The notes: generated from the letters alone by a model not told the origin. DNA of 30,006 bases from a bacterium (GCA_024278215.1 JAJRTR010000173.1:1-30006); one strand, 5' to 3'. Positions 6,332 through 22,160 are shown, counted from the first letter of the stretch. A program made the numbers and translations.

Positions 6332-9300
6332 TTACATTTTACCCATTTTCCTGAGGAATTGTTTCGCTGTTTCGTCGTATCCCGAACCGGGGAAATTCCT
6401 GACGAGTTTTTCGAGATATACCGCCGATTTGTCTTTGTCGCCTTTATAGTAATACGCCTGTCCGATATACAGGAGCGTTTCGGCTTCCTGGAAACGCGCG
6501 ACACCGGTGTCCAGCGCGCCGCTGAGCAATTCTATCACGGCATCATATTTCTTGAGCCTGTTTTCGACATCCGCCAGCCGAATGACCGCCGATATGTATT
6601 CGGGCGTAACATTGTAGGGAGTGTTCTTGAACTTCTTAACAACCGCCGAAAGGATATTTTCCGCAAGCTCTTGCCGGCCAAGGTTCATGTGGCACGTGCC
6701 GAGCATGTAGGCGACTTTTATTTCGTGCTGCGGTTCGAGCCTTCTCTTTTTGAGCTTATCAAGATATGTCAGCGCTTTGTCGAATTTATTCAAATGGATG
6801 TAAGCGAGGGCGATATTAAGTTGCGAATTGACATAATTGGGCTCGACTTTTATGGCCCTGAGATACATGTCGAGCGCTTCCTGGACTTTGCCTTCGTTGA
6901 ACAGCTGGTTGCCCCTGTTGTTGAGTGCTCTCGTGTGTTTCGGGTTATACTTCACGGCTTTGTCGAAAAGCGCGCCGGATTTCTTGTCTGTAGCCGCGGC
7001 CTTTCTTTTCAGAGCGGCGGCTTCGTCGTTTTTACCCTGCGCCTCCAGTTGCATGACTTTTTTATTCATCATGGATGCTTGTTTTGTGTAGAGGAGTCCG
7101 AGGTTATAGTAGGCGTCGGCGTGCGCGGGGTTGAGGCGGATAGTGTATTCGTACCATTTTATGGCGTTTTCAAGTTTGTCTTCAGTGGGGGCCAGGTTGT
7201 ACATTTTCTCGAAGCTGAGAGCGAGTTTGAAACTGGCTGTGATCAGGCGCGGGTTGAGTTCGATAGCTTCCGTGAACATGTCTGAAGCTTCTTTAAAGAG
7301 TTCCAGCGCTTTCTTCTTACGGTCTACGCCTTCGAGATTCATGTATTTGAGAACCGCCGGGTTGCCGCTGGGGTCGTTTGTTATTGCCAGGGCTTTCTGA
7401 TATGAAATCAGGCCTATATTGTAGCGCGGATGCGCATAGTTGGGATACACGGCCCGTGATTCTTTGAATGATTTTTCCGCTTTGTCGTAGAACTCGGGAC
7501 CTTTCTCAAAATACAACGCGCCCAGGTCAAGTGAAATCTGAGGCAGGTCGTAATATCGGTTAGCTTCAGTGAATTCCTTGATGGCTTCTTCGCGTTTGCC
7601 CTGTTTCTGTAAGAACATGCCGCGGAAGAGGTGTATGTCGCCGTTGTAGCGGTCGAGTTTCAAGGCGAGATCGTATAGATCGGCGGCTTTTTTTGTCTGG
7701 CCCGCTTTTGCCATAAAGTTTGCTGTTTTCATGTGTATGTTGGACATCTGCCAGTTCCATGAAATCAGCGTTATAAAGATAAAGAAAGCGATGGAAATAA
7801 GCAGCAGCACGATGCCGAGAAAGAGGTCCATCGGGACAACGGCCCAGTGTTTTTTCCAGGAAGTGTCAGGTTCCTCACGAATAACCGGTTCCTGTTTTCT
7901 GCGTTTGTTCTTTTTCCCCTTCTTCTTTTTCGGTACTTTCTTTTCTTCCTGTTGTTTAGGCAGCACAATAGGTGCCGGTCCCTTGTAGCCGGGGAGGATG
8001 AGAGGCAGAGTTTCGACGCCGAATGTGCGGTCGTGAGAGAATACGAGCATGGCGAGGTGCACGCCGCAAAGCATCGCCGGTCCCATAATATGGAAGGGGA
8101 ACCCGAGTGCCGCCGAAAGCGATATTGAAACGAGGCTGGAGAAACTCCCCAGTGCCACTATCTGCGTGAAAGTGTCCGAAGGTGCGTTGGGCGCGTTTAT
8201 AGTTTTCAGGAAATACGATAGAACGGTCCATGCGAAAAAGAGAATGAAGATCGGTGCGAGCGGCCCCATTTCCGCTGTCATGTGTAGATATTCGCAGTGG
8301 GCTTCTTTTGCGTTGACGTCTTTGAAAAGACCGGGGATTGTAGTTTTGCCGGAGCTTGCAAGATATGCCTTGAGCATATCGAGGTACCTGATTTTGAAAG
8401 CGCCGAGGCCGACACCGAGCGGATAATGTTTTATCATCTGGATGGAACCGCCCCATATATAATTTCGGGAAACGATGGAGTCTTCCACCTGTTTCGGCGG
8501 GGCGAGTGTCTGTTGCGTGGCCTGCTGAGTTTGTGCTGTCGGACCGGTGTTATTCGTTTTATCGGGCAAGCCGATGATTGCGGTAGCGGCCATTATCGCG
8601 GCGATTATGCCGATGCTTACGGCTCTTGCCGCCGTGCGCTTGAACAGGAAGATTGCGGAACCGGCAAAAAAGAGGAATACGCCGATGAACCCGATCCAGA
8701 GAACCGGTTTCTCCGCGAGTACGCCGCCGATAATATTTGCTATGGACAACAGGCGGCTCGAGTACGAATAGGAGGGAGCCATAAATTGTAATTTACTGCC
8801 GAAAAACGAAAAAGCAACCTGGTTGTTCGTAACATGTATGATGATGAACGCGAGCAGCAGCAGGGCGGCAAGGTGCGCAACAGCTTCCATGATTTTTTTC
8901 GCGGGCAGCTTGTCTACCGCGAAGAACAGAAACATGAGACATCCGCCGATGAGCCCGATCCAGGAGCCTCGCGTGATTGCAACGATTATGACAAAAAGCA
9001 TCGGCGCGATAGCCAGCCATACCAGGGCTTTTATCCATTTTCGGCTTGTCGCCACACTGACGGCGAGTGAGAACGGTATTGTCATGGCCAGCATTTCGGC
9101 CACGTAGTTTTTATTGCCGAGTGTGCTGAAAGGATCGAAATTATGTCCCAGCCGTATGTATTCATTGAGACCGAAATGTTGTGCGAACCCTATCAGCGCT
9201 TCTATCCCCATCGAAGCAATCACGAGGATCATCAACATATTGAAATGTTTTTTCGCGTCGAGGCAGTGGATGATAAGGAAGAAGTTCATCACGATGAAAA

Positions 9301-9805
9301 AGAATTGAATGAACTCTTTGAAGCTGATCATGAAATTCGGTGACATGATAAAAGAGAATAGGCTCAGGAGAGTGATCAGAAGGACAGGCAGGTTGAACGG
9401 TGTTTTTCTGAATTCGAGTCTGCTTTTGAGCAGGGAGGAGAGGACAAAGAGTACAAGTATGAAAGACACGCTGATTTGCATCATTGTCTGTTGCGGCAGG
9501 CGGAAAGACTCGAATGAGCGGAATATCACGAAATAGGTGGAGAAGACCACCGATTCAATGATATACATTGCGATGGGCCGTGCGAGCGGCCTGCGGTCGG
9601 AGTGGCTGTCCCCGAAGAAGAAGGGAACGACAACGGCGGCTGTGGCGAGCAGAGTGCCCAGCGCGATGTAGTTGCCCTGATTCGGATTATTAAAGAAAAT
9701 GATGATTTCTTTAAAGAAGAAATACGGCATCAGAATCAGCGCCGGGTAGAGAAGAATTTCGATTGACAATTCAATCGGTGAAATTTTTGATTCCTGTTTT
9801 GACAT
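6332..9805 (-). CDS. O-antigen ligase/polymerase-like membrane protein with large TPR C-terminus
   Basis: A polytopic membrane protein of the WaaL/Wzy/RfaL superfamily fused to TPRs, 1157 residues from the chosen start. The first ~590 residues contain about a dozen hydrophobic spans. Around 500-520 (AKEAHCEYLHMTAEMGPLAP) it has the H-x-E-Y-L-x6-G signature of the O-antigen ligase domain, so it probably joins or polymerises lipid-linked surface glycans. A strongly basic linker (~615-640) precedes a last TM (~655-683). Then ~470 residues form about ten TPRs ending the protein, probably outside the cytoplasm. I prefer the ATG at 9805 (MSKQESKISP) because earlier in-frame codons lie inside the STAS gene. 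It overlaps the STAS stop by 35 bp and lacks a clear ribosome binding site, suggesting translational coupling. WaaL alone is ~400 residues; the TPR fusion is known in some phyla but this one is large. Confidence 0.85.
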   Translation of the reverse strand: MSKQESKISPIELSIEILLYPALILMPYFFFKEIIIFFNNPNQGNYIALGTLLATAAVVVPFFFGDSHSDRRPLARPIAMYIIESVVFSTYFVIFRSFESFRLPQQTMMQISVSFILVLFVLSSLLKSRLEFRKTPFNLPVLLITLLSLFSFIMSPNFMISFKEFIQFFFIVMNFFLIIHCLDAKKHFNMLMILVIASMGIEALIGFAQHFGLNEYIRLGHNFDPFSTLGNKNYVAEMLAMTIPFSLAVSVATSRKWIKALVWLAIAPMLFVIIVAITRGSWIGLIGGCLMFLFFAVDKLPAKKIMEAVAHLAALLLLAFIIIHVTNNQVAFSFFGSKLQFMAPSYSYSSRLLSIANIIGGVLAEKPVLWIGFIGVFLFFAGSAIFLFKRTAARAVSIGIIAAIMAATAIIGLPDKTNNTGPTAQTQQATQQTLAPPKQVEDSIVSRNYIWGGSIQMIKHYPLGVGLGAFKIRYLDMLKAYLASSGKTTIPGLFKDVNAKEAHCEYLHMTAEMGPLAPIFILFFAWTVLSYFLKTINAPNAPSDTFTQIVALGSFSSLVSISLSAALGFPFHIMGPAMLCGVHLAMLVFSHDRTFGVETLPLILPGYKGPAPIVLPKQQEEKKVPKKKKGKKNKRRKQEPVIREEPDTSWKKHWAVVPMDLFLGIVLLLISIAFFIFITLISWNWQMSNIHMKTANFMAKAGQTKKAADLYDLALKLDRYNGDIHLFRGMFLQKQGKREEAIKEFTEANRYYDLPQISLDLGALYFEKGPEFYDKAEKSFKESRAVYPNYAHPRYNIGLISYQKALAITNDPSGNPAVLKYMNLEGVDRKKKALELFKEASDMFTEAIELNPRLITASFKLALSFEKMYNLAPTEDKLENAIKWYEYTIRLNPAHADAYYNLGLLYTKQASMMNKKVMQLEAQGKNDEAAALKRKAAATDKKSGALFDKAVKYNPKHTRALNNRGNQLFNEGKVQEALDMYLRAIKVEPNYVNSQLNIALAYIHLNKFDKALTYLDKLKKRRLEPQHEIKVAYMLGTCHMNLGRQELAENILSAVVKKFKNTPYNVTPEYISAVIRLADVENRLKKYDAVIELLSGALDTGVARFQEAETLLYIGQAYYYKGDKDKSAVYLEKLVRNFPGSGYDETAKQFLRKMGKM

Positions 9806-10115
9806 CTGGATATACAGTAAATACTCTGTCGAGACCGCAAAGAGAAAAAGCCTTTTCAAATTCGGGCGTGAAAGTGCCGGCGAGGCGCAGATCACCGCCC
9901 CTGTCGCGCGTAGTGTTCAGCAGTGACACGATAACACCGAGCCCGGTGCTGTCGATGGACTTGATGCCGCTGACATCCAACAGCACTTTTCTGTGGCATT
10001 CCTCTATCACAAGTTCCCGGATTCTGGTCTTTAACTCCAGGTGTGATTGTACGTTAAGCCTGCCGTAGATATTTACCGCTGCTACTCCGTTCTGTTCTTG
10101 TATTTTTATAAACAT
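9771..10115 (-). CDS. STAS-domain anti-sigma factor antagonist (SpoIIAA/RsbV-like) 1
   Basis: A 114-residue single STAS domain. In partner-switching systems such proteins bind and release an anti-sigma kinase according to the phosphorylation of one Ser/Thr. The phosphosite motif is intact as IKSIDSTGLGV, with S56 and T57. The C-terminal GLDRVFTVYPDV is also typical of the family. It lies 21 bp after the second STAS gene and overlaps the start of the large glycan ligase by 35 bp. No HATPase anti-sigma kinase or sigma factor gene is visible in the window. PP2C-type phosphatases, the usual enzymes that reactivate STAS antagonists, are encoded 5-7 kb upstream on the same strand. The ribosome binding site is poor: AGGG directly touches the ATG. 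Confidence 0.9.
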   Translation of the reverse strand: MFIKIQEQNGVAAVNIYGRLNVQSHLELKTRIRELVIEECHRKVLLDVSGIKSIDSTGLGVIVSLLNTTRDRGGDLRLAGTFTPEFEKAFSLCGLDRVFTVYPDVKTGIKNFTD

Positions 10116-10136: not shown

Positions 10137-10481
10137 TTATGATAATAATTCTTTCATTCCCGTGTCGCTATCAGGATAGATGATGAATACTTTATCAAGG
10201 CCGCAGAGATTAAAAGATTCCTCGACCGAGGGTAAAAACGGGCCCGCGATTCTCAAGTCTCCAAGACGGCTCCTGATCATGTTAAGCAGTGTCACAAGGC
10301 ATCCTATGCCGGCACTGTCTATTCTTTTGAGTTTGCCGACGTCGATCATGATTTTTCTGATTCCGTTCTTTTTGACTTTATCCCTGATTGCTTTTTCGAG
10401 ATCGTCGCGCGAATAAATATCGAGTTGTCCAATCGTTCTGACAATCAGTATATTGTCATGTTCCTCGAACGAAATAATCAT
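10137..10481 (-). CDS. STAS-domain anti-sigma factor antagonist (SpoIIAA/RsbV-like) 2
   Basis: A second single STAS domain, also 114 residues and clearly paralogous to its neighbour (LRIAGPFLPSVEESFNLCGLDKVF here, LRLAGTFTPEFEKAFSLCGLDRVF there, written with the shared positions aligned). The phosphosite is RIDSAGIGC: S56 is kept but position 57 is Ala instead of Thr, so only one acceptor residue is available. The pair looks like a tandem duplication. The gene follows the HTH regulator after 16 bp and precedes the other STAS gene by 21 bp, as expected for one operon. The ribosome binding site is weak. Confidence 0.9.
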   Translation of the reverse strand: MIISFEEHDNILIVRTIGQLDIYSRDDLEKAIRDKVKKNGIRKIMIDVGKLKRIDSAGIGCLVTLLNMIRSRLGDLRIAGPFLPSVEESFNLCGLDKVFIIYPDSDTGMKELLS

Positions 10482-10497
10482 AAATGGGATCGTGTTC

Positions 10498-11139
10498 CTA
10501 TCTTCTCTGCTGTTCCATGAATTCGATAATGTCGTTGAGTTTAAAGCGCCTCTGGTTGCCCGGTGTGCGGTAGTGAGGAAGGATTCCCTTTGCGGTGTAC
10601 CTGCGAACAGTCGCCTTGCAGACGCCCATGATTTTAGCGGCTTCTTCGAGAGTGATTGTCGGATTCACCAGCCGTTCGAGGATTTCTTCTCTGCTCTGGC
10701 TCTGTTTTGTTTTCCTTGTTCCTTTTGCAATATTTTTCGGGCGTTCGACCCGCTCGATGCCGGGGAGTTTTTTTCTCTGGACACCCGAGTCGTCTTTCTG
10801 GGCGGTCTTCCTTGTTTTTGTTGTTCTTTCAGCGGCTTTCCAGACATCATGCACAGAAACGAAGGGAGAGGAGAGCGGACTGCCGTGTGATGAGCCTGAC
10901 TGCGTCCCGGCTTCCTCTTCCTTGATCGAGGCGCCCGAAGTTTTGCCTTTTGCGCCGGCGGGACTGAACTTTGATTCAGACAGCTTCTGCTGCAATGTCT
11001 TGCGGCGAATCGAGAATCTTTCCTGGTCTATCGCCGGAACGGGATTTTCCGGGTCGAAAGTTTTCTCAAGCCGCCCATCGTCCTTTGCTTTGTCCGTTTC
11101 CGATTTTACGTACTGTTTCCAGTCTGTAAACCTGTCCAA
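10498..11139 (-). CDS. Helix-turn-helix regulator with disordered N-terminus (excisionase/MerR-like C-terminal HTH)
   Basis: 213 residues. The C-terminal ~60 residues (ITLEEAAKIMGVCKATVRRY, then TPGNQRRFKLNDIIEFMEQQ) form a winged HTH of the excisionase/BldC/MerR DNA-binding type, with G-x-L-P-x-x-R-T-P-x-x-x-R-R-F as the wing. The first ~145 residues are charged, rich in K, S, E and R, and probably disordered; no sensor domain is seen. A phase-specific or partner-controlled regulator of the downstream STAS and glycan genes would fit, but this is inference. I start it at TTG 11139: GGAGGG lies 6 bp upstream and no ATG fits. It is the first gene of the HTH-STAS-STAS-ligase block, and its upstream gap carries a dispersed stem-loop. 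Confidence 0.85.
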   Translation of the reverse strand: MDRFTDWKQYVKSETDKAKDDGRLEKTFDPENPVPAIDQERFSIRRKTLQQKLSESKFSPAGAKGKTSGASIKEEEAGTQSGSSHGSPLSSPFVSVHDVWKAAERTTKTRKTAQKDDSGVQRKKLPGIERVERPKNIAKGTRKTKQSQSREEILERLVNPTITLEEAAKIMGVCKATVRRYTAKGILPHYRTPGNQRRFKLNDIIEFMEQQRR

Positions 11140-11338: not shown

Positions 11339-11614
11339 TTAAAATCGTATTTCAAATCCGCTGAACTTTGTTTTGTCAATATCTTTCCTGTTTGCATCGA
11401 CATCCGAAACGGAGGAGAACGAAGGTCCTCTTTTAAGAGCCGCAACAAGTTCGTCGATTTTTTCTTTTTTTCCCTCCGCCACTACTTCCACTGAGCCGTC
11501 GGACATATTCCTTACATATCCGCAGACTCCGAGCGAACCTGCAACCCTCTGCACAAAGTACCTGAACCCGACGCCCTGGACGCGTCCTTTTATATTTGCT
11601 TCGAGTCTTTCCAT
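11339..11614 (-). CDS. acyP: Acylphosphatase
   Basis: A small cytoplasmic enzyme hydrolysing carboxyl-phosphate bonds (acetyl-phosphate, carbamoyl-phosphate and similar compounds). The 91-residue length is normal. The signature GRVQGVGFRYFV (10-21) supplies the phosphate loop and R18. N36 in GYVRNMSDGSVEVVAEG is the second catalytic residue. The GGGGGAG site is about 12 bp before the ATG, a rather long spacing. It is separated from its neighbours by ~200-250 bp, so it may be transcribed alone. Confidence 0.95.
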   Translation of the reverse strand: MERLEANIKGRVQGVGFRYFVQRVAGSLGVCGYVRNMSDGSVEVVAEGKKEKIDELVAALKRGPSFSSVSDVDANRKDIDKTKFSGFEIRF

Positions 11615-11860: not shown

Positions 11861-12142
11861 TTACTTGTCTTCTTTCTCCACTTCGATGACCGGCGGCGGA
11901 GCGGCATTCATTCCCAGGCGTTCGAGCATCTGCTCGGCCGGCAGGCTTTTCCTGTCATCCTGTTTTGTTGCCGCGTTGAAATCCTCGACGTCCTTTTCGC
12001 TTTCTTCCAGCATCGCGAGGAACTCTTTCTCGTTTTCGCCACGTTTCTGCTTTTTCTGTTTTTTCGATGTGTCGTGAACTTTGTAGACATCTCTACTGCG
12101 CCTGATGTGGCTGATAGTCGTATTGTATTCCAGTTCAGACAA
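11861..12142 (-). CDS. Small highly charged hypothetical protein
   Basis: 93 residues that I do not recognise. The N-terminus MSELEYNTTISHIRRSRDVY is followed by a Lys-rich stretch (KKQKKQKRGENEKEF) and then an acidic, probably helical part, ending in a Pro patch (NAAPPPVIEVEKEDK). No membrane segment or signal peptide is seen. The start is TTG at 12142, with GGGAG 9 bp upstream on the minus strand. It lies 20 bp after the HD-GYP gene, so it is the last gene of the signalling block. It could be an adaptor or RNA/protein-binding partner, but nothing in the sequence decides this. Confidence 0.65.
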   Translation of the reverse strand: MSELEYNTTISHIRRSRDVYKVHDTSKKQKKQKRGENEKEFLAMLEESEKDVEDFNAATKQDDRKSLPAEQMLERLGMNAAPPPVIEVEKEDK

Positions 12143-12162: not shown

Positions 12163-14493
12163 TTATCCTGTTACCGAGACAATCTTATCGGGCAATGTGT
12201 CGGAAAAAACCCTCAGGAAAGCGTCAACCACCTTCGGGTCGAACTGTGTCCCGTTGTGTTTCATAATTTCTTTCACAGCTTCTTCATGTGACAGAGCCTT
12301 GCGGTACGGCCTGTCCGATGTCATCGCGTCATAAGCGTCCGCGATAAGAATGATTCTCGACATGAAGGGTATCTCTTCACCGGCGAGTCCGTCGGGGTAT
12401 CCGTATCCGTCCCAGCGCTCGTGGTGGTGCCTGATAATCGGTTTTATATCCTGGAGGAACGGTACCGGTTCGACAATAGTTTCTCCGACGAGAGGATGTG
12501 TCTTGATTATTTCATATTCATCTACAGTGAGTTTTCCTTCTTTCGAGATAATCAGCTCGCTGATCCCGATTTTTCCTATATCATGCAAATCCGCCGCATA
12601 TTTGAGCAAGTCTATCTGGTCGTCGTCGAAGTTCATTTCTTTTGCGATCAACAAGGATATATCGCTAACCCTTTTCGAGTGGCCGTGTGTGTATCTGTCT
12701 TTTGCGTCGATGGCCATTGAAAGCGCCTGGATGGTGTTGAGGTAGCTTCCTCTAAGTGACTCGAAGAGCTTCGCGTTTTCAATGGCACCCGCGGCCTGGT
12801 TTGCAAATATGCCCAGCAGCCTCTTTTCGTCTTCTGTGAATACATGTCTGTTTTTTGTGTAGAGGTTCAGCACACCCATCACTGATTGTTTTGTTATGAG
12901 TGGGATGCTGATAATTGATTTGAGTTTCATTTCGTGCAGGAAGTGCTCCGAGGGTATCCTCTTGTCGGATGCGAGGTCCTCGACCACAATGGGTTTTCTC
13001 ATTTTCACGGCCAGTCCGCTGATTCCTTCACCGATAGTTGTCGTGCCCTTTTCCTTGTAGTCTTCCCCCATGCCGCGGCTTATCTCGACATTAAGATTTT
13101 TGCCGCTGTGGTCCAGCAGTTTGATCGAGCATATCTGGAATCCCATTACCTTGCTGATTGCGTCAATTATCGTGTTGAGGACTGTCGCTGTGTCGAGGCT
13201 GTCGCTTATCTTGTTTGTTACTTCGCTCAGAGATGTAAGTTCTTTGACCTTGCGTGAAAGTTCCCGGTTGGCTTCCTCGCGTTTTGAAGTGTCGTTCTTC
13301 AACTGGTGGAAGGCTTCTTCGAGTTTCTTCTGGTAATCCTGCAACGTGTTGATTTTTTCTTCCATCACCGAACTCATTTTGTTGAAGGCGAATCCCAGGG
13401 AGCCTATTTCGTCGCGTCTGTATATTTTGACACGCCTCGAGTAGCCGCCCTGTGAGATTTCCTCGACAGCGTCCAGAAGTTCGCCGATGGGTTTTGTTAC
13501 TCTGTATGACCTGTAGAGTGCGAGGAAGATGCCGACCAGCAATGCGAGAATTCCGACCATGATGATGCGATGGGCCGTTTCTTCCACGGGTTTGAAGGCT
13601 TCGGCCCGTGGCTGCATAAGCACAATGTGCCATCCCAGGTCGCTGCCTACGTCTGTGACTGTGCCGATATATTTCTCGTTGCCTATGCGGAAATTGAGGT
13701 CGTGTTCGAGCATGCCGCCTGTTTTTATGCCTTTTTGCGAGGCAAGCTGGTAGAGAGGCATCCCTTTATCGAATATTGATTTTGTGGCTGTTTCCTCATG
13801 TGTATTTGTAAGTATGATCCCATCGTTGTCTATGAGAAATACCTGCATTCTGCGACCGGCGATGTCTTCATTTCTTACTGATGTTTCCATCATGGAACTG
13901 TCCAGGGTTTTCTCGGCGATTATAATTCCTTTTAATTTCCCTGTTTTGTCGAAAACCGGTTTTGCGATAAACACTCCGTTGTGATGATTGAACTTATTGC
14001 GCATTGGATATACTATCGTTCGTTTTTCGTTTATTGCCTGTATCACTTCGGGTTCGTCCGCTATCCCGTTGTGCGGTGTGATACCTTCCCTGATGTATGC
14101 GTCTGTATACACGAGGCGTTTGTTGCTGTTGTAAACATATACAGTGTCCAGGTTCGCCCGAAGCACAAATGTGCCCATGAAAAAGGTGTAGAGGGTAGGG
14201 CGGTCGAGATGTTTGTCAACGAGCCTGTCGGCCACTTCGTCGATCGCTTTTACCGTCCTGCATATTTCCTGGTCGATGTTGGTCGAGAACACTGTGGACA
14301 GCAGTTCCATTTTGTCCAGAAGGTTCTCACGCGCGAGCCTGCGAGTATTCGTATACGTGATGTAAAACATGAGAGATGTCGTAACAACAATAAGGAGAAC
14401 GAATGAAAGCAACAGCTTCATCCGCACACCCTTCGAGCGAAAATAAGAGTGTTCGACCGGTTTGTCAGCGTTATGTGCTGAACCGTTTATCAT
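12163..14493 (-). CDS. Membrane receptor with Cache, HAMP, GAF and HD-GYP domains (c-di-GMP phosphodiesterase-type)
   Basis: 776 residues. TM1 ~27-45 and TM2 ~307-330 flank a ~260-residue extracytoplasmic Cache-type sensor (VYVYNSNKRLVYTD, GVFIAKPVFDKTGKLKGII). Then come HAMP (~330-385, KPIGELLDAVEEI), a short coiled coil and GAF (~425-570), followed by HD-GYP (~580-770). The HD pair is H637/D638 in ADLHDIGKIGI. The following HHHERWDGYGYPDGLAGEEIP carries the GYP signature intact, so hydrolysis of cyclic di-GMP is expected. The HD region also keeps AIDAKDRYTHGHSKRV. CCGGAG lies 10 bp before the ATG. It starts 17 bp after the lytic transglycosylase gene, suggesting co-transcription and that an envelope signal is converted into a c-di-GMP change. 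Confidence 0.95.
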   Translation of the reverse strand: MINGSAHNADKPVEHSYFRSKGVRMKLLLSFVLLIVVTTSLMFYITYTNTRRLARENLLDKMELLSTVFSTNIDQEICRTVKAIDEVADRLVDKHLDRPTLYTFFMGTFVLRANLDTVYVYNSNKRLVYTDAYIREGITPHNGIADEPEVIQAINEKRTIVYPMRNKFNHHNGVFIAKPVFDKTGKLKGIIIAEKTLDSSMMETSVRNEDIAGRRMQVFLIDNDGIILTNTHEETATKSIFDKGMPLYQLASQKGIKTGGMLEHDLNFRIGNEKYIGTVTDVGSDLGWHIVLMQPRAEAFKPVEETAHRIIMVGILALLVGIFLALYRSYRVTKPIGELLDAVEEISQGGYSRRVKIYRRDEIGSLGFAFNKMSSVMEEKINTLQDYQKKLEEAFHQLKNDTSKREEANRELSRKVKELTSLSEVTNKISDSLDTATVLNTIIDAISKVMGFQICSIKLLDHSGKNLNVEISRGMGEDYKEKGTTTIGEGISGLAVKMRKPIVVEDLASDKRIPSEHFLHEMKLKSIISIPLITKQSVMGVLNLYTKNRHVFTEDEKRLLGIFANQAAGAIENAKLFESLRGSYLNTIQALSMAIDAKDRYTHGHSKRVSDISLLIAKEMNFDDDQIDLLKYAADLHDIGKIGISELIISKEGKLTVDEYEIIKTHPLVGETIVEPVPFLQDIKPIIRHHHERWDGYGYPDGLAGEEIPFMSRIILIADAYDAMTSDRPYRKALSHEEAVKEIMKHNGTQFDPKVVDAFLRVFSDTLPDKIVSVTG

Positions 14494-14510: not shown

Positions 14511-15179
14511 TCATGACCCGTAGACGAAGTACCTGTAAAGGCTCGTCACTTTCCTTACATACTCACGGGTTTCCCTGTACGGTGGAATACCTTTATGTTT
14601 TTCCACCGCTTCCGGCCCCGCGTTGTAGCTGGCGAGGGCCAGGTCAAGTGTTCTGTCACTGTTGCGCCACCTGTTGGATTGCATCCAGATGTAGCGGGTC
14701 GTGCCGTATATATTTTGCTTAACATCGAAAGCGTTCCTGACGCCAAGCATGCGGGCGGTTCCCGGCATCAGCTGTCCCAGCCCCTGCGCGCCTTTTGGAG
14801 ACACGGCTCGCGGCTGGAACCTGGATTCGACGGCGATCACCGCCACGACAAGTCTGGGGTCGAGTTTGAATTTTGCGGAATACAGAAGTATGTGGCGTGA
14901 GATTTCCAGTGCCTGCCCGTCGGTCAGGTTGCTGTTGTAATATTTCACTACTCGCATGTATGCCAGCTCGACTCTGGCATACTCGTTGCGCAGGTTACGG
15001 CGTGATTCGTCCGTCGCCTGTTCACCATCTACCGCGATCTCCATGGGGCCGGACTTCTTGAGAGCGGTTGTTGCCGGGTTCGGCGCTGCTGCTTCCTGGC
15101 CCATCGCGTGCGGCGCGGACACAGCCACTACTACAATTATAAGAAATATTTCCAAAACATGTATCAGACTTTTTTTCAT
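14511..15179 (-). CDS. Secreted lytic transglycosylase (SLT/LT family)
   Basis: A periplasmic enzyme that cleaves the MurNAc-GlcNAc bond of peptidoglycan with formation of 1,6-anhydro-MurNAc. I chose the ATG at 15179, giving 222 residues and a signal peptide (MKKSLIHVLEIFLIIVVVAV, cleavage probably after SAPHAMG), with AAGGA 9 bp upstream. The catalytic Glu is E118 in VIAVESRFQPRAVSPKGAQG, followed by the family's LGQLMPGTARMLGV and the tyrosine-bearing LALASYNAGPEAV. The catalytic domain (~95-215) fills the C-terminus; there is no LysM or other wall-binding domain. It lies 54 bp after the pseudo-PP2C/NHL gene and 17 bp before the HD-GYP receptor. Confidence 0.95.
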   Translation of the reverse strand: MKKSLIHVLEIFLIIVVVAVSAPHAMGQEAAAPNPATTALKKSGPMEIAVDGEQATDESRRNLRNEYARVELAYMRVVKYYNSNLTDGQALEISRHILLYSAKFKLDPRLVVAVIAVESRFQPRAVSPKGAQGLGQLMPGTARMLGVRNAFDVKQNIYGTTRYIWMQSNRWRNSDRTLDLALASYNAGPEAVEKHKGIPPYRETREYVRKVTSLYRYFVYGS

Positions 15180-15232
15180 AAATATAAATCCTTTTTTCCC
15201 GGCCACTATATCTCCGGCAGTTGCCGCGCCGC

Positions 15233-16963
15233 CTATATCTTCATTCTCCAGATTTTACCTTTGCACTTGCTCTTGTATTTCGGGTTGTATTTATAGCGGT
15301 TGCTCGCCACTATGTATATATAATCCCCCTGCGGGCCCATTTTGATGCTTAAAGGATAAAAGCTTTTGAAGTCTTCTACCTTGTCTCTGTCGAGCACCGC
15401 TTTCAGCTTTCCCATCTGGTTGGCTATCACGATGCGCTGGTTCCCCGTGTCGCAAATGTATACGTTTCCTTTGTTGTCTACTTCGATGCCCGACGGCTTC
15501 GACAGGCGCACTTCTTCGCTGCCTTTTGCGCCTTCCTGGAATATCAGGAAATCCGTCACGATATTCTTGCTGGAAATCTTCCCCACCTGGCCGGATATTT
15601 TCAGTGTCAGGTATATGATTCCGCCTCTGGTCACCGCGAGTCCGTTGGGCTGGCTGAATCCCGATGGCATTTTTATTGTTCCCTCGTTCAGGTATGTTCC
15701 TTCGTGGTCGAACTTGAGCAGCCTGTTGTTGCCCCTGTCGCTGACGTAGACGATTCGCTCGGAACCTTTCCCGACTGCCTTCACCGATTTCGGGTTGATC
15801 AGCCTGACCATGTAGCTTCTGCTGTCGGGGATTGTGCCCGCGAAGCTTCCGTCAGTCCTGAAGATGTATACCTTGTTGACTGAAAAATCCGCGACGTATA
15901 TCTTATCTTCCAGCACATCGATTCCCGTGGGGAAACTCAGCTTGACTTTCCGGCCGATCTTCTCACGCGAACCGCTGGCCGGGTTGTATTTGATTATCTG
16001 TGTTTCCGCATCGTCGATTATGTACAATGTGCCGTCTTTCGCTATGGCGACATCGTAGGGAACGAGAAGTTTGTCGTAGACAAGCTCGAAGTCGTATGAT
16101 TGCGCCTGCATTGCCGATTTGACGGACTTGACTACTCTCTGCGACCATCCCCGGTTCTTCTGGAACACCACCGACACCGGGCTCATTCTGATGACGCTGA
16201 CGATGTCGCCCCATAGGAAAAAGAGCATGATCAGGATTGCCATCGCGCCGAAAACAGCGAAATATCTTTTGTTCAGAATCGCCTGGCTCGTTTCCTGCAA
16301 CTGCTTGAATTTTATTATCAGCAGCCGCGGTGTCTGTGTTTCTTCATACTTGTTTGCCAGCATGTTGATCTTGTTGCAGGCAAGGTTCAGGTCGTCCTCT
16401 GTTGTCAGGATATTGCGCACTTCAAGTTTTGTCAGGTTCTTGACCATATCCTCGTTGCTCAGGACGACTTTGTCTCCGTCGCCGATTGATATGCCTTCGA
16501 CCTGTATGCTTGCGACACCGCGTCCTTTCGGTGGCTTGAATATCTTCCTGAATTTCCTGTCTTTAAGAAAAAATACCGGGCATTCGTTTATTCGTCCGAT
16601 GTACATTGCGTTGTTCTTCACCAGGGCGATTGCGAACGAGTGGCGCGCGGAACCGGCCTCCACCAGTCCCTTTTCCTCCTGCAACTTGATGAATTCTCCG
16701 ATCAACTGCTTGAGAAACGCGCCCGGTCTGGAGAGTTCGCCTCGTTTGTATACTTCGGAATACGGCTCCACCATTGATGCCAGCAGCGCGAGGCTCTCCT
16801 GCTCCGCCTGCGGGGCCATCCCGGAGAAGACCGCGAAAATTCCGTAATATTTTGATGTGTCGTTCGAGTCCAGAAGATACGTGCCCGCACCGAACTTGTG
16901 GCCGTTTTCAAGCACTCCCACAAGTGTTCTGTACGAACTCTGGATCGTTTTTTTACCCGTCAA
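15233..16963 (-). CDS. Pseudo-PP2C domain fused through one TM to an NHL beta-propeller
   Basis: 576 residues. Residues ~1-225 align by eye to a PP2C phosphatase fold: YGIFAVFSGMAPQAEQESLAL stands for the GLFAVADGMGG region, and KVVLSNEDMVKNL for the LLLCSDGLT region. In both, the metal-binding Asp is lost (S47 for Asp; SNED for SDGL at 168-172), so it is probably catalytically dead. A single TM (~234-252) follows. The C-terminal ~275 residues are six or so NHL/YncE-like blades (LVPYDVAIAKDGTLYIIDD, FPTGIDVLEDKIYVADF, KPSGIEVDNKGNVYICDTGN, QRIVIANQ) and are predicted to lie outside the cytoplasm. TTG start with GGGAG 9 bp upstream; 15 bp after the active PP2C gene. Probably a sensor or regulatory paralogue of that enzyme. 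Confidence 0.85.
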   Translation of the reverse strand: MTGKKTIQSSYRTLVGVLENGHKFGAGTYLLDSNDTSKYYGIFAVFSGMAPQAEQESLALLASMVEPYSEVYKRGELSRPGAFLKQLIGEFIKLQEEKGLVEAGSARHSFAIALVKNNAMYIGRINECPVFFLKDRKFRKIFKPPKGRGVASIQVEGISIGDGDKVVLSNEDMVKNLTKLEVRNILTTEDDLNLACNKINMLANKYEETQTPRLLIIKFKQLQETSQAILNKRYFAVFGAMAILIMLFFLWGDIVSVIRMSPVSVVFQKNRGWSQRVVKSVKSAMQAQSYDFELVYDKLLVPYDVAIAKDGTLYIIDDAETQIIKYNPASGSREKIGRKVKLSFPTGIDVLEDKIYVADFSVNKVYIFRTDGSFAGTIPDSRSYMVRLINPKSVKAVGKGSERIVYVSDRGNNRLLKFDHEGTYLNEGTIKMPSGFSQPNGLAVTRGGIIYLTLKISGQVGKISSKNIVTDFLIFQEGAKGSEEVRLSKPSGIEVDNKGNVYICDTGNQRIVIANQMGKLKAVLDRDKVEDFKSFYPLSIKMGPQGDYIYIVASNRYKYNPKYKSKCKGKIWRMKI

Positions 16964-16978
16964 ATCCTGACGCTCCCG

Positions 16979-18865
16979 TTATTCTTTTCTCATCTGTATT
17001 TCTATTGACTGATACTCTCTCGTCAATTTGATTGTCCGGTTGTAATCCCTGTAGCCGGGCTTTGTCGCCTGTAGCGTATACTCCCCCGGCTTGAGATCGT
17101 ACCTGACGTCGGAAAATCCCGTCAGCACCAGCGCACCGTCGTCGAATATCATGATGTTGCATTCCGGAACATTCGATTTTATCGTGAAGAAAGCGATGTT
17201 CACCGCGTCGGTATCCGCCCCGTACAGGGCGTCGCGTGCTACTTCCGCCAGAGCGCCGCCATCATCGCCGTAAGCTGATACGGGTGGCGATTTGTTGACA
17301 TCCGGCTGCGTGTCGATCACGTCTACGCTTGTGTCGTTGTTCCGGGGCCGTGCCGTATGTGTCCTTGCGGAAGCTCTCCCTGCCATCGTTGCGGGGGAGG
17401 CTGTTGTTCCACGTGCCGCCGCTTCTGTGAACCTGAATAATGTCGCCTGCGTGATGTCGGATTTAATATTGATCGTGTGCCCCTGAACCTGTGTGCCCAT
17501 ATATGCTTCCAACTGGTGTCTTCCGGGTTGTATCGCCCGAAGCATTATTTCCGTTCGCGGAAACCCTTTCAGTTCTATGCCGTCGAGCGCCATGCGGTCG
17601 CAGCGTGGCGCGCACTTCACGAGTATCGCTCCCGCCGGCGGCTCGAGCGGGCGAAGTGTCAGTACTCTCTGGAGCTCCTGCCCCTCGTCGGGTGATAAGC
17701 TTTCTATGTACGGCTGATAACCGTCGTGCTCAACCCGAATCTCGACTTCCGTCCCCGCCGGCGCTTCTACTACCGCCGGTGTGAGACTTTTTTCCTGAAC
17801 TCCGTTTATGAATATCTTCGCGCCCCGCGGTTGTGTTTTGATGTCTATCTTCGCAGACGGCCCGATGTCTCCGGCTGCCGTTCCCGCCGCGGGTTGCTCC
17901 GCCATGGTCTCAATCGTCGCGGGTTCGTTTTCTGTTTGTGCCTGTTCCACAGTCGGCGACGTGCCGTAGGGCGCGCCGGCGATTCTTACGATATTTTCAT
18001 GCAGGAAACTTATCGCCGCTATGGTGACTGCCATTGTCAGCACAACGGCATACTTTTTCATCAACGATTCGCGTGGATACTTGATGCGCTCGACATATTC
18101 CGGCTCTTCCTCACACGCGCCGGCTACTGTAATGAGAACCGCGCTTACGTCCTCGCTGTCGTCGTGTTTTCTGGCTTCTTCCATCAACTTCTCGACTGCT
18201 TCATCCTGCGATTCCGAATTAAGAAGTATCTCCTGTATCTTTACATTTGTGAGTCTTGAGATCAGGCCGTCCGAACAGAACAGGAGTGAACTGCGTTTGC
18301 AAAGTTTCTGGCTGATAATTACAGGTCTGAAGTAATCGTCGCTCCAGCCCGGTGGGATGCGGCCCTCGCCCAGCGTTTCCAGGTCGATGTCTTCCAGCCG
18401 ACCCAGGCCCACATCTTCTGTGAGCCTCATTATTTTTCCGGGTTCGACGAGATATGCCGCGCCTCCTCCGGCATAAGCGATATGCGCAGTTTCGTCCTCC
18501 ACGTATCCACACATAATCGATGCCGCTATAATGCCGTTCCCTCTTATACTTGTTTCTTTCAGGAGCGCGGCGTTTACTTCTCGCAGGCATTCTTCCAGTA
18601 TATTGCCTCCCCGGAAATCCTCACGGCGGAACCTGGACTCTATGCTGTTTCTCAGCGTTTTTATTGCGATCTCGCTTGCGAGGTCTTCAGAAGATGTTCC
18701 GGCTGTTCCGTCCGCTACTCCGTATAATCCCAGCAGCCCGGTGTCTCCCGGGTAATTCACACAACATATATACTCTGCATTGGCTGTGCGGCGGCTCCCG
18801 CGCATCGTGCGGCCCGCAGACAGTATCTGTATTTCTTCGGTTTGTTTTTCTTTTGTCTCAGGCAT
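16979..18865 (-). CDS. PP2C-family Ser/Thr phosphatase with TM and C-terminal PEGA domains
   Basis: 628 residues. The N-terminal PP2C domain (~15-250) has D52 in YGVADGTAG, D199 in LLFCSDGLIS and D235/D236 in HDDSEDVSAVLI, the Asp residues that hold the two metal ions. The first motif, usually R-x-x-N-E-D, reads RTANAEY, so the Asp there is absent; activity is likely but not certain. One TM (~271-288) follows a basic stretch. A Thr/Ala/Glu-rich linker leads to PEGA-type beta repeats at ~335-405 (AKIDIKTQPRGAKIFINGV), a diverged one at ~410-470, and one at ~560-625 (GEYTLQATKPGYRDYNRTI), predicted extracytoplasmic. A role removing Ser/Thr phosphates under control of an envelope signal fits. 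It follows mtnA after 51 bp and precedes its degenerate paralogue after 15 bp. Confidence 0.9.
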   Translation of the reverse strand: MPETKEKQTEEIQILSAGRTMRGSRRTANAEYICCVNYPGDTGLLGLYGVADGTAGTSSEDLASEIAIKTLRNSIESRFRREDFRGGNILEECLREVNAALLKETSIRGNGIIAASIMCGYVEDETAHIAYAGGGAAYLVEPGKIMRLTEDVGLGRLEDIDLETLGEGRIPPGWSDDYFRPVIISQKLCKRSSLLFCSDGLISRLTNVKIQEILLNSESQDEAVEKLMEEARKHDDSEDVSAVLITVAGACEEEPEYVERIKYPRESLMKKYAVVLTMAVTIAAISFLHENIVRIAGAPYGTSPTVEQAQTENEPATIETMAEQPAAGTAAGDIGPSAKIDIKTQPRGAKIFINGVQEKSLTPAVVEAPAGTEVEIRVEHDGYQPYIESLSPDEGQELQRVLTLRPLEPPAGAILVKCAPRCDRMALDGIELKGFPRTEIMLRAIQPGRHQLEAYMGTQVQGHTINIKSDITQATLFRFTEAAARGTTASPATMAGRASARTHTARPRNNDTSVDVIDTQPDVNKSPPVSAYGDDGGALAEVARDALYGADTDAVNIAFFTIKSNVPECNIMIFDDGALVLTGFSDVRYDLKPGEYTLQATKPGYRDYNRTIKLTREYQSIEIQMRKE

Positions 18866-18916: not shown

Positions 18917-19954
18917 TCATTTTCGCAGTTTCGCCAGATTCTTCCTGTTGGGAGGTGCGGCAACTCCATTTTCCGTGATTATTCCCGCTATGAGTTTCGC
19001 GGGAGTCACGTCGAACGCGTAATTTACAATATCCACACCGTCAGGACAAATAACCTCGCGCCCGATCTTCCTGACTTCGTCACCGTCGCGCTCTTCGATA
19101 GGTATCTCCGCACCGGACTTCAGCGAATAATCAATTGTCGATATCGGCGCGGCCACATAAAACGGCACTTTGTGCGCTTTGCTTACTATGGCAAGCGAGT
19201 ATGTGCCGATCTTGTTTGCAGTGTCGCCGTTCGCCGCGATCCTGTCCGCGCCCACTATCACAGCGTCTATCATGCCGCGGGCCATAAGTGTTGCCGCCGC
19301 GTTGTCGCAATTGAGCGAACAAGGAATCCCTTCCTGCACCATCTCGAAAGCCGTCAGCATCGCGCCCTGCAGCCGCGGCCTGGTCTCGTCGGCGTAAACC
19401 CGCTCGATCCTGCCCTTCGCGTAAGCCGCCCTGATGACACCCAGCGCTGTGCCGTAGTCGGCTGTAGCGAGGCTGCCGGCATTGCAATGTGTCATCACAC
19501 GACTTCCTTTTTTAAGCAGCTTCGCACCGTTCGCCCCCATTCTTTTGTTTATCTTTATGTCTTCCACTCTCATCTTCTTTCCCTCTTCGATGAGAGCGGC
19601 AGTGATACCGGCCACATCCTTACCGGCGTTTTTCGCGATGATGCCTCGCTGTCTTTCAAGCGCCCAGAAAAGATTGACTGCCGTCGGCCTGGTTCTCTCT
19701 ATCCTTTCAAAAACCGTCTCCATGTATTCATAAAACTTTTCTTTATCTTTACCCCTGAACTTCGTGGCCCCGAGCGCGACTCCCATAGCAGCCATCACGC
19801 CTATCGCCGGTGCTCCGCGCACCTGCAATATCTCTATGGCTTTTGCTACAGCCTCGATGCTCTTTGCCTTGATATATTTGAACTTCCCCGGTAGCAATGT
19901 CTGGTCAATGAGTTCGATACAGTTTTCTTCGTCGAGCCATCTTAATGTGTCCAA
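18917..19954 (-). CDS. mtnA: S-methyl-5-thioribose-1-phosphate isomerase MtnA
   Basis: Converts 5-methylthioribose-1-phosphate to the ribulose form in methionine salvage; in some bacteria the family also acts on 5-deoxyribose-1-phosphate. The family is eIF2B-like. C157 in MTHCNAGSLAT and D237 in VIVGADRIAANGDTANKIGT are the catalytic pair, and VRGAPAIG (45-52) is the N-terminal signature. The length of 345 is normal. The TTG start at 19954 has GGGAGG 8 bp upstream. No other methionine-salvage gene is in the window; the gene heads the signalling block, 51 bp before the PP2C gene, which may be a chance arrangement. Confidence 0.96.
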   Translation of the reverse strand: MDTLRWLDEENCIELIDQTLLPGKFKYIKAKSIEAVAKAIEILQVRGAPAIGVMAAMGVALGATKFRGKDKEKFYEYMETVFERIERTRPTAVNLFWALERQRGIIAKNAGKDVAGITAALIEEGKKMRVEDIKINKRMGANGAKLLKKGSRVMTHCNAGSLATADYGTALGVIRAAYAKGRIERVYADETRPRLQGAMLTAFEMVQEGIPCSLNCDNAAATLMARGMIDAVIVGADRIAANGDTANKIGTYSLAIVSKAHKVPFYVAAPISTIDYSLKSGAEIPIEERDGDEVRKIGREVICPDGVDIVNYAFDVTPAKLIAGIITENGVAAPPNRKNLAKLRK

Positions 19955-20431: not shown

Positions 20432-21925
20432 TCATATTACCCCGGTCGACTGCCTTTCAAACAAACAAATGTGAATTATTTCCTCATTGGCAACAAGCGC
20501 GTTCCCGACGACAGCCGGACCGTCGATCCCAAAAGCCGCGCCTTCACCGGGCGGCGAGTACAGTTCACCTATCGCACCGCCTGCATTACTGATGAATTCC
20601 GAAACTTTTTCCTTCTTCGCTTTTTTGAATTTTGTTTTTTTCGTTCTCAGTACTGTTTCCATAGCGCAACTGCTCAGTATCTTCGGCCACTTGCGCTTCA
20701 GCGACTGCGAACTGTTGAATATATCGCTTCCGAGCACACGGTCTCCCAGACACGCCACATATCCGTTTGCACCTTCCGGCAGTTCTATTTTGCTCCGGAA
20801 CTTATCTATCCTGTCCTTTGCGGATGCGTAAGCGTCGCTCATCGCTTCAGAATCCGATTCGACCGCGAGTAAGCAGTTCACTGCAGCCACATCCGCCCAC
20901 ACGCAGCCCTGGTCGGCTGCATAAGTACCGTTCTCTTTTATGTTTTTCAGAACCTCTTCCCTGCGCCGCATCCGCATCCCCGATGTAGCCATCGCTCCCG
21001 AACTGAATTCTCTCTGCCGATACTCCCACCGACCCTGTTCCACACAACTCACCGGTATCAGAATTTCCTGATTCGCAGCGGCCAGGATCGGTATGTTCAA
21101 TATCCGGTTCTGCTTTGCGCCCACGAGTTCCTCTCCGTCCAGCAGCAACACTTTCGAGTTGCTTTTGTTCTTCAACAGCAACTCGGGCACCGAGCCGGAT
21201 TCGGACACCTCGCATATCTCCATCATGCCCTGTTCGAGAAGGTCCTCAATGAAATCGTATTTTACTTTCCCATAATTTGCGCCGCCGCCGAATTCAAGCG
21301 GGAAAACAGTAAGCCCGTTATAATACACCGGCTCCCCGATCTCGATAGCCGACAGCGCCGCACCGACTTTTTCCTTAAGTTTCTTCTCGCCGGCGACATG
21401 TTGCTTGTGAATACGCCATTTCAACAGGTTTATTGCCAGGAACACTTCAGGATACTTGTTACCCGAGGCCATTTTCAGGAGCCGGCGCTGAAGTTTAGTC
21501 GCCTCTTCGCGCGAAATCTTCGGCGGATTATGGTACTGGTGGAGAATTATGTTGCGCACTGTCCTGTCCGTTGTATCGGAGGCGGCGGACGGCTCGAACA
21601 TATCTTTCCCCTTTTCATGTTTGAAGATTTTTACAACGCTCAACAGATCATTCGCCTTCCGGTTCACTCTTACCGCACAGCCTTTGAGTCCGATACGGCC
21701 CGAATCGATCAGCGGCGCGAGATACCGTGAGTGAAAACGCGGAATGTGCCCCACAGGTTCGAAATCCGCGTTATCCACTCGAATCGCGTTCCTGTCATAC
21801 ACATTGTCCGGCTCACGCTCGAACAGCAATTCGCTGCCCGCTTCCACATTCCTTATCCCTTCGTAATACTGCACACCCGCAAGTGAAATCTTGACTTTTC
21901 CCAATTCTTCTACTTTCTGTTTCAT
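20432..21925 (-). CDS. HIRAN domain protein with C-terminal ARPP-1-like domain
   Basis: About 497 residues. The N-terminal ~100 residues form a HIRAN domain (LAGVQYYEGIRNVEAGSELL, REPDNVYDRNAIRVDN, VGHIPRFHSRYLAPLIDSG), a module that binds DNA ends in Rad5/HLTF-type proteins and occurs alone in bacteria. A helical linker (~115-190) follows. The C-terminal ~300 residues match what I remember of the ARPP-1 domain (IEIGEPVYYNGLTVFPLEF, LLLDGEELVGAKQNRILN, PVSCVEQGRWEY), whose biochemical activity I do not know. I start it at the second ATG (21925): GGGGAG sits 9 bp before it but abuts the first ATG at 21934. It is transcribed alone and has its own terminator. A role in DNA damage or conflict is possible, but not shown by the neighbours. 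Confidence 0.8.
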   Translation of the reverse strand: MKQKVEELGKVKISLAGVQYYEGIRNVEAGSELLFEREPDNVYDRNAIRVDNADFEPVGHIPRFHSRYLAPLIDSGRIGLKGCAVRVNRKANDLLSVVKIFKHEKGKDMFEPSAASDTTDRTVRNIILHQYHNPPKISREEATKLQRRLLKMASGNKYPEVFLAINLLKWRIHKQHVAGEKKLKEKVGAALSAIEIGEPVYYNGLTVFPLEFGGGANYGKVKYDFIEDLLEQGMMEICEVSESGSVPELLLKNKSNSKVLLLDGEELVGAKQNRILNIPILAAANQEILIPVSCVEQGRWEYRQREFSSGAMATSGMRMRRREEVLKNIKENGTYAADQGCVWADVAAVNCLLAVESDSEAMSDAYASAKDRIDKFRSKIELPEGANGYVACLGDRVLGSDIFNSSQSLKRKWPKILSSCAMETVLRTKKTKFKKAKKEKVSEFISNAGGAIGELYSPPGEGAAFGIDGPAVVGNALVANEEIIHICLFERQSTGVI

Positions 21926-22160
21926 TTTAAGCATCTCCCCTCGTATGTTCGTCGAATCTATGTTACATCTACTATCTTAGCAGCAGGGTGCGACATGAAT
22001 TTGCAAAAGTGGGTTACAGTGTGCGTGAAAAGCTTCAGCACATGAGAGAGTACAGGGTATATTTGCAAACTTTCCAATTACCGCCTGATCCAATTGCAGC
22101 CGAACGTAGCCGAATCAGAATTTTGCAATTGGCTCGTTCGTTAAGCTAAAATATACTCTC
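21926..22160. other. Divergent intergenic region
   Basis: A 235-bp gap between the divergent HIRAN and amidohydrolase genes, where both promoters should lie. No clear -35/-10 pair was found for either. The right half is occupied by a reverse-oriented dispersed-repeat module (22109-22135). Confidence 0.5.
22090..22135 (-). repeat. Dispersed repeat, CCAATTGC module in reverse orientation
   Basis: On the minus strand 22135-22109 reads GAGCCAATTGCAAAATTCTG followed by ATTCGGC, matching 4597-4623 and 26661-26687 with one or two differences. In addition, CCAATTGCA at 22090-22098 pairs perfectly with TGCAATTGG at 22124-22132, so this copy can form a 9-bp stem. It lies ~25 bp upstream of the amidohydrolase start. 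Confidence 0.75.

Follow-up and report, generated by a model that had tools for sequence, protein, structure and literature searches.

How would a putative bacterial membrane phosphatase and a catalytically dead homologue, encoded side by side and each fitted with its own external sensor, work together, and is the dead copy retained for a function of its own? The question is raised by two adjacent genes in the window, a stretch of bacterial DNA of 30,006 nucleotides (GCA_024278215.1 JAJRTR010000173.1:1-30006). The genome to which it belongs, as contig C150, is a metagenome assembly of 4.55 Mb from the little-known phylum UBP15/UBA6099; its relatives in GTDB are metagenome-assembled genomes too (for example bacterium ADurb.Bin236, UBP15_UBA6099). 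Both genes lie on the minus strand, and their reading frames are separated by 15 nt. The PEGA protein (16979-18865, 628 amino acids) consists of a PP2C domain at residues ~13-250, a transmembrane segment at ~271-293 and PEGA/beta regions at ~339-406 and ~560-626. The NHL protein (15233-16963, 576 amino acids, TTG start) consists of a dead PP2C domain at ~14-223, a transmembrane segment at ~232-263 and a propeller at ~295-575.

The layout that the initial annotation had proposed for both neighbours, a PP2C fold followed by a single membrane span and a predicted extracytoplasmic beta domain, is confirmed, and so are the two sensor families it had named. PEGA domains are recognised in two stretches of the first protein (Pfam PF08308, E 2.6e-17) and NHL repeats in three stretches of the second (PF01436, E 1.4e-17), where they also match the propeller structure of PknD (1rwi). 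Both proteins contain a single hydrophobic stretch flanked N-terminally by Lys/Arg, which is consistent with a cytoplasmic N-terminus in both, as predicted from these basic residues.

The N-terminal part of the PEGA protein is a PP2C domain. A profile of five orthologues retrieves Stp1 (6ihu, E 2e-11), hhalign pairs the domain with canonical PP2C at 99.7%, and the predicted structure, whose pLDDT of 58 is modest, superposes as the annotation had anticipated, with a VIA Z of 21.6 to tPphA (2j86_A; 208 residues, 2.4 A). Pfam matches fall below the cut-off both for the SpoIIE subfamily profile PF07228 (E 0.0041) and for PF13672 (E 0.017); by sequence profile the domain is closest to the Stp1/tPphA type. 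In alignments with canonical PP2Cs and with orthologues it keeps R26, N29, D52-G53, D199-G200 and the acids E238/D239, and D52-G53 and D199 are invariant among orthologues. Of the metal-binding aspartates listed initially, D52 and D199 thus stand, but D235/D236 do not: the four full orthologues have K/S there. The third acid lies instead at the conserved E238-D239, where the canonical DN motif aligns; it is D in relatives, and in the window protein the register is ambiguous between E238 and D239.

Other elements of the canonical site are missing. NAE replaces NED and GGGA replaces GDSR in all five sequences, and ADGTAG/ADGMGA is found in place of ADGMGGH. The motif 1 Asp of NxD and the GDSR Asp, the latter occupying the third-metal position in tPphA-type enzymes, are features of canonical Stp1/PstP-type phosphatases that the PEGA protein lacks. 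What it retains (D52, G53, D199 and E238/D239) matches the metal set of SpoIIE, namely D628, G629, D746 and D795 (PMC5468089). Judged by these residues, an active enzyme reduced to the two-metal type is plausible, while the loss of the NxD and GDSR aspartates means that the phosphatase may be weak or inactive.

The PP2C character of the NHL protein is more remote. The N-terminus of the window protein alone has no Pfam match, and its profile reaches an E of only 0.64 against PP2C chains of the PDB. Profile-profile comparison with 13 canonical PP2Cs, however, gives a probability of 95.9 and a score of 64, against 21.6 for the best of 60 column shuffles and 14 for the reversed profile. An AlphaFold2 model (pLDDT 66, pTM 0.66) has the elements of PP2C in order; PP2C phosphatases are its top Foldseek matches, and it aligns with Stp1 (6ihr) over 183 residues at 2.8 A, with a VIA Z of 16.6. 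The N-terminus is therefore a PP2C fold by two independent tests, and the shuffles, the reversed control and the structure exclude chance or a mis-call. The initial annotation had named a prediction that residues 1-225 were not PP2C-like as what would refute it; the prediction came out PP2C-like.

Of the active site in this domain nothing remains at the metal-ligand positions. The three metal Asp positions are occupied in the three lineages by S/N/N, E/E/Q and Q/V/K. FSG/FNE/YNG stands for ADG and NED/SEN/SQD for SDG, so the FSG and SNED replacements first noted in the window protein were read correctly, and the loss extends to all three lineages. There is no NED motif, and GDSR is replaced by NECP, NACP and RNCP. 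By its sequence the NHL PP2C domain is dead, a pseudo-phosphatase in all three lineages.

The two PP2C domains resemble one another only weakly and locally (hhalign probability 24-25%, score 31). A simple recent tandem duplication is accordingly not supported, and any duplication that gave rise to both must be old.

The dead domain does not evolve as a relic. Among members of the sister genus its dN/dS is 0.02-0.03, with one pair at zero, whereas the PP2C domain of the PEGA protein has 0.12-0.21. The corresponding nonsynonymous and synonymous counts, small and drawn from two independent genome pairs, are 2/27 and 28/51 (Fisher p 0.003). The dead domain is under strong purifying selection and is more constrained than its PEGA counterpart; recent pseudogene decay is excluded by the open frames, the low dN/dS and the persistence in three lineages. 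That the domain is so tightly preserved although its active site is erased suggests a regulatory part for the dead copy, not that of junk. The constraint also bears on the reading that both cytoplasmic domains are inactive structural anchors, and that only the extracytoplasmic beta domains work, together with the lytic transglycosylase and O-antigen ligase-like proteins. The substitutions of NED, GDSR and ADGMGGH in the PEGA protein and the envelope genes around the pair would fit such a role, but we think it improbable, as the PEGA protein keeps D52, G53, D199 and an acid at the DN site, and a dN/dS of ~0.02 is more constraint than a mere anchor needs.

Conservation is unevenly distributed within the dead domain. 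It is highest in the beta hairpins 101-140 near the former GDSR site (R124, C128, P129) and in helices 3-4, and among the lowest in the helices matching the SpoIIE switch, where 12% of positions are identical in all three lineages. The corresponding helices of SpoIIE carry the regulatory dimer interface, and a SpoIIE-style dimer is disfavoured by their poor conservation here. This pattern speaks more for contacts made by helices 3-4 and the edge of the former active site than for a switch-helix dimer.

The same pattern agrees with the main rival to a joint function, in which the dead PP2C is an independent adaptor that leaves the neighbouring phosphatase untouched and binds a client of its own, such as a STAS, HD-GYP or HTH protein or a cell-wall enzyme; adjacency would then reflect a shared envelope regulon. 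A bacterial precedent exists in RssB of Escherichia coli, a PP2C domain turned inactive adaptor (PMC12143880, PMC5468089). Like RssB, the NHL protein would be a bacterial PP2C domain kept for protein binding in the predicted absence of activity. RssB, however, lies in the cytoplasm, carries a receiver domain and owes its inactivity to a C-terminal truncation, whereas in the NHL protein the domain is full-length but its ligands are substituted; this protein also has a transmembrane segment and a propeller, and a non-degenerate paralogue lies next to it. That the two genes are strictly adjacent and share one layout suggests that they act jointly; an independent adaptor is a serious possibility to which we give distinctly less than an even chance.

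Genome-wide searches covered 386 genomes, seven of them from the phylum. Orthologues of the NHL protein occur in 6/7 phylum genomes and were not found in the 380 other genomes searched. An additional single scan of GTDB gave no match outside the UBP15/UBA6099 group, with short conserved peptides as the query, which distant relatives could escape. Wherever the NHL gene occurs, the PEGA gene lies directly upstream, so that the co-occurrence of the two, on which the proposal had also been staked, is borne out. Four of the upstream genes are full-length orthologues, and in G002 only the C-terminal part is present, at a contig edge. Three genera, placed in three families, retain the adjacency. The seventh genome, G005, yielded no NHL protein and no HD-GYP orthologue; the whole cluster may have been lost as a block, or may be absent through the 80% completeness of the assembly. 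Two candidates for a similar tandem outside the phylum were rejected: in G066 the adjacent PP2C genes encode cytoplasmic proteins of a zinc-ribbon/kinase cluster, and in G014 a PP2C-TM protein has no PEGA or NHL partner in the same stretch.

The pair sits within a tightly ordered run of about 10 genes on the same strand, which in the window and the sister genus reaches STAS genes. Directly upstream of the PEGA gene is an IF-2B/MtnA-like gene (18917-19954, minus strand, as are all genes that follow), likewise in the relative L043. Beginning 26 nt downstream of the NHL gene is a lytic transglycosylase (SLT) whose N-terminus has a hydrophobic, signal-like segment (14511-15206), in the same position in the relatives examined. 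It is followed by a dCache-HAMP-GAF-HD-GYP sensor protein (12163-14493), with orthologues in the same 6/7 genomes as the NHL protein, a small lysine-rich protein conserved in position (11861-12142), an acylphosphatase (11339-11614) and a DNA-binding protein with a C-terminal HTH_17/MerR-like domain (10498-11139). The order from the mtnA-like gene to the HTH gene is common to the sister genus, and G002 has the same order from the PEGA gene onward. The lysine-rich protein (~93-112 amino acids, xRxVHDxxKKxKKEKR..., no credible family; also L043:15007-15285 and L044:5715-6053) is always encoded between the HD-GYP and acylphosphatase genes. Elsewhere in the window, at 20432-21934, a HIRAN domain is fused to ARPP-1 (PF20208), an unusual pair.

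Two anti-anti-sigma-like STAS genes in tandem end the small-gene part of the run. STAS1 (10137-10481, RIDSAGIG) matches an anti-sigma F antagonist with E 1.4e-11, and STAS2 (9771-10115, SIDSTGLG) matches TM1442 with E 7.4e-10, as well as SpoIIAA and RsbV-type proteins; both resemble antagonists of the SpoIIAA/RsbV type and share with them the serine of the IDS(A/T)G motif. This arm varies between genera: the window has two STAS genes, the sister genus one, and in G002 no STAS gene was seen between the HTH and Wzy genes. In the window (6332-9895), in G002 and in the sister genus alike, the run ends with a gene in which a Wzy_C (O-antigen ligase) domain is fused to a long TPR region (1187 amino acids in the window). 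STAS anti-anti-sigma proteins are classical substrates of PP2C phosphatases, SpoIIE and RsbU acting on SpoIIAA and RsbV. The presence of STAS genes downstream in the same cluster, not mentioned in the initial annotation, makes STAS1 and STAS2 candidate substrates, and suggests where the PEGA phosphatase might act.

No HATPase_c_2 kinase, sigma factor or Hanks-type kinase gene is found within the cluster. Proteins with HATPase_c_2, the RsbW/SpoIIAB-type kinase domain, and SpoIIE phosphatases are present in 7/7 phylum genomes. A different substrate is implied if the PEGA phosphatase opposes PknB-like Hanks-type Ser/Thr kinases and shares its phosphoprotein targets with the NHL protein, which would act as their decoy or scaffold. 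PEGA and NHL domains do recall the sensor modules of such kinases, the PknD propeller being a solved NHL relative, the best alignments of the PEGA protein's PP2C domain are to Stp1 and tPphA, and three kinases in the window's genome exceed the Pfam cut-off. Its best kinase, however, is PknB-like and already has a canonical PP2C directly beside it at another locus (G000:C78, L098:1456-4261), and the cluster, devoid of kinases, does contain STAS genes; we regard opposition to Hanks-type kinases as unlikely. The other phylum genomes have no PF13672 match at E 1e-8, and there the role of main non-SpoIIE PP2C may fall to the PEGA protein.

The reading we prefer, tentatively and at somewhat less than an even chance, is a two-input envelope sensor that feeds a partner switch. 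The dead PP2C would take part in it without catalysis, as a regulator or by binding the substrate. The PEGA protein would be a single-pass membrane phosphatase with a SpoIIE-like minimal metal site, and the NHL protein a single-pass membrane pseudo-PP2C whose fold is kept for binding, not catalysis. The former would act on the phosphoserine of the STAS proteins encoded downstream, a step proposed because bacterial PPM phosphatases dephosphorylate STAS anti-anti-sigma factors (PMC11418112), and this would free a sigma factor or other target. The pseudo-phosphatase would tune the reaction by binding either the phosphatase or the STAS substrate without cleaving it, and its propeller would sense a second cue outside the membrane that sets the effect. 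The initial annotation had likewise suggested that the pseudo-phosphatase may regulate its neighbour, by dimerising or by sequestering the substrate, and that the two beta domains may read different wall or glycan cues. The scheme is supported by the two PP2C folds, the ligands kept in one and lost in the other, the low dN/dS, the preserved adjacency, the STAS genes in the run and the phylum-wide HATPase_c_2 and SpoIIE proteins. It is weakened by the losses at NxD and GDSR, by the distance of several genes to the STAS genes and their absence at the G002 position, and by the location of HATPase_c_2 kinase and sigma factor genes outside the cluster. PPM domains are commonly switched by dimerising through sensor-linked helices (PMC12143880, PMC5468089); a heterodimer version of our scheme is weakened by the poorly conserved switch helices of the dead domain. 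A stricter arrangement, an obligate two-chain transmembrane receptor with the dead PP2C and propeller as allosteric or substrate-holding subunit of the active PP2C, has, in our view, distinctly less than an even chance.

Known systems share parts of this design. SpoIIE, RsbU and RsbP of Bacillus subtilis have, like the PEGA protein, a PP2C fold with a minimal Asp-Asp-Asp/Gly metal set and a sensor part in the same chain, and STAS genes occur in the same cluster here; unlike them, the PEGA protein is nearer to Stp1/tPphA by sequence profile, has its sensor C-terminal and extracytoplasmic, and is accompanied by a dead PP2C, with no cognate kinase or sigma gene adjacent. The layout PP2C-TM-extracytoplasmic is that of Mycobacterium PstP, which is a canonical and active enzyme, and PknD of Mycobacterium has an external NHL propeller on a kinase instead of a phosphatase fold. 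Pseudo-kinases paired with active kinases are familiar. Among eukaryotic PPM pseudophosphatases, TAB1 and PHLPP2 (PMC12002173) resemble the NHL protein in their full PP2C fold, poorly conserved metal ligands and proposed scaffolding role, but keep one metal site (Mn or Zn), are no propeller-bearing membrane receptors and do not share an operon with a homologue that is active.

The initial annotation knew of no described system with this pair, and we did not find one in the literature or genomes searched; of its components, pseudo-PP2C domains (RssB, TAB1, PHLPP2) and sensor-linked PP2Cs are both known. Literature retrieved under 'pseudophosphatase' for bacterial PP2C held eukaryotic cases only, and a survey of bacterial PP2Cs (PMC12088040) mentions neither NHL nor PEGA. 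The new part is the paired membrane form: across the phylum an apparently live PP2C and a dead one are encoded next to each other, each with an external sensor of its own, and for this we found no description. If the two-chain receptor were true, a live/dead enzyme pair would integrate two envelope signals. The pair bears on whether a non-catalytic partner can gate bacterial Ser/Thr dephosphorylation, and its dead domain, more constrained than the live one, offers a clean test of the role of the PP2C fold after catalysis is lost.
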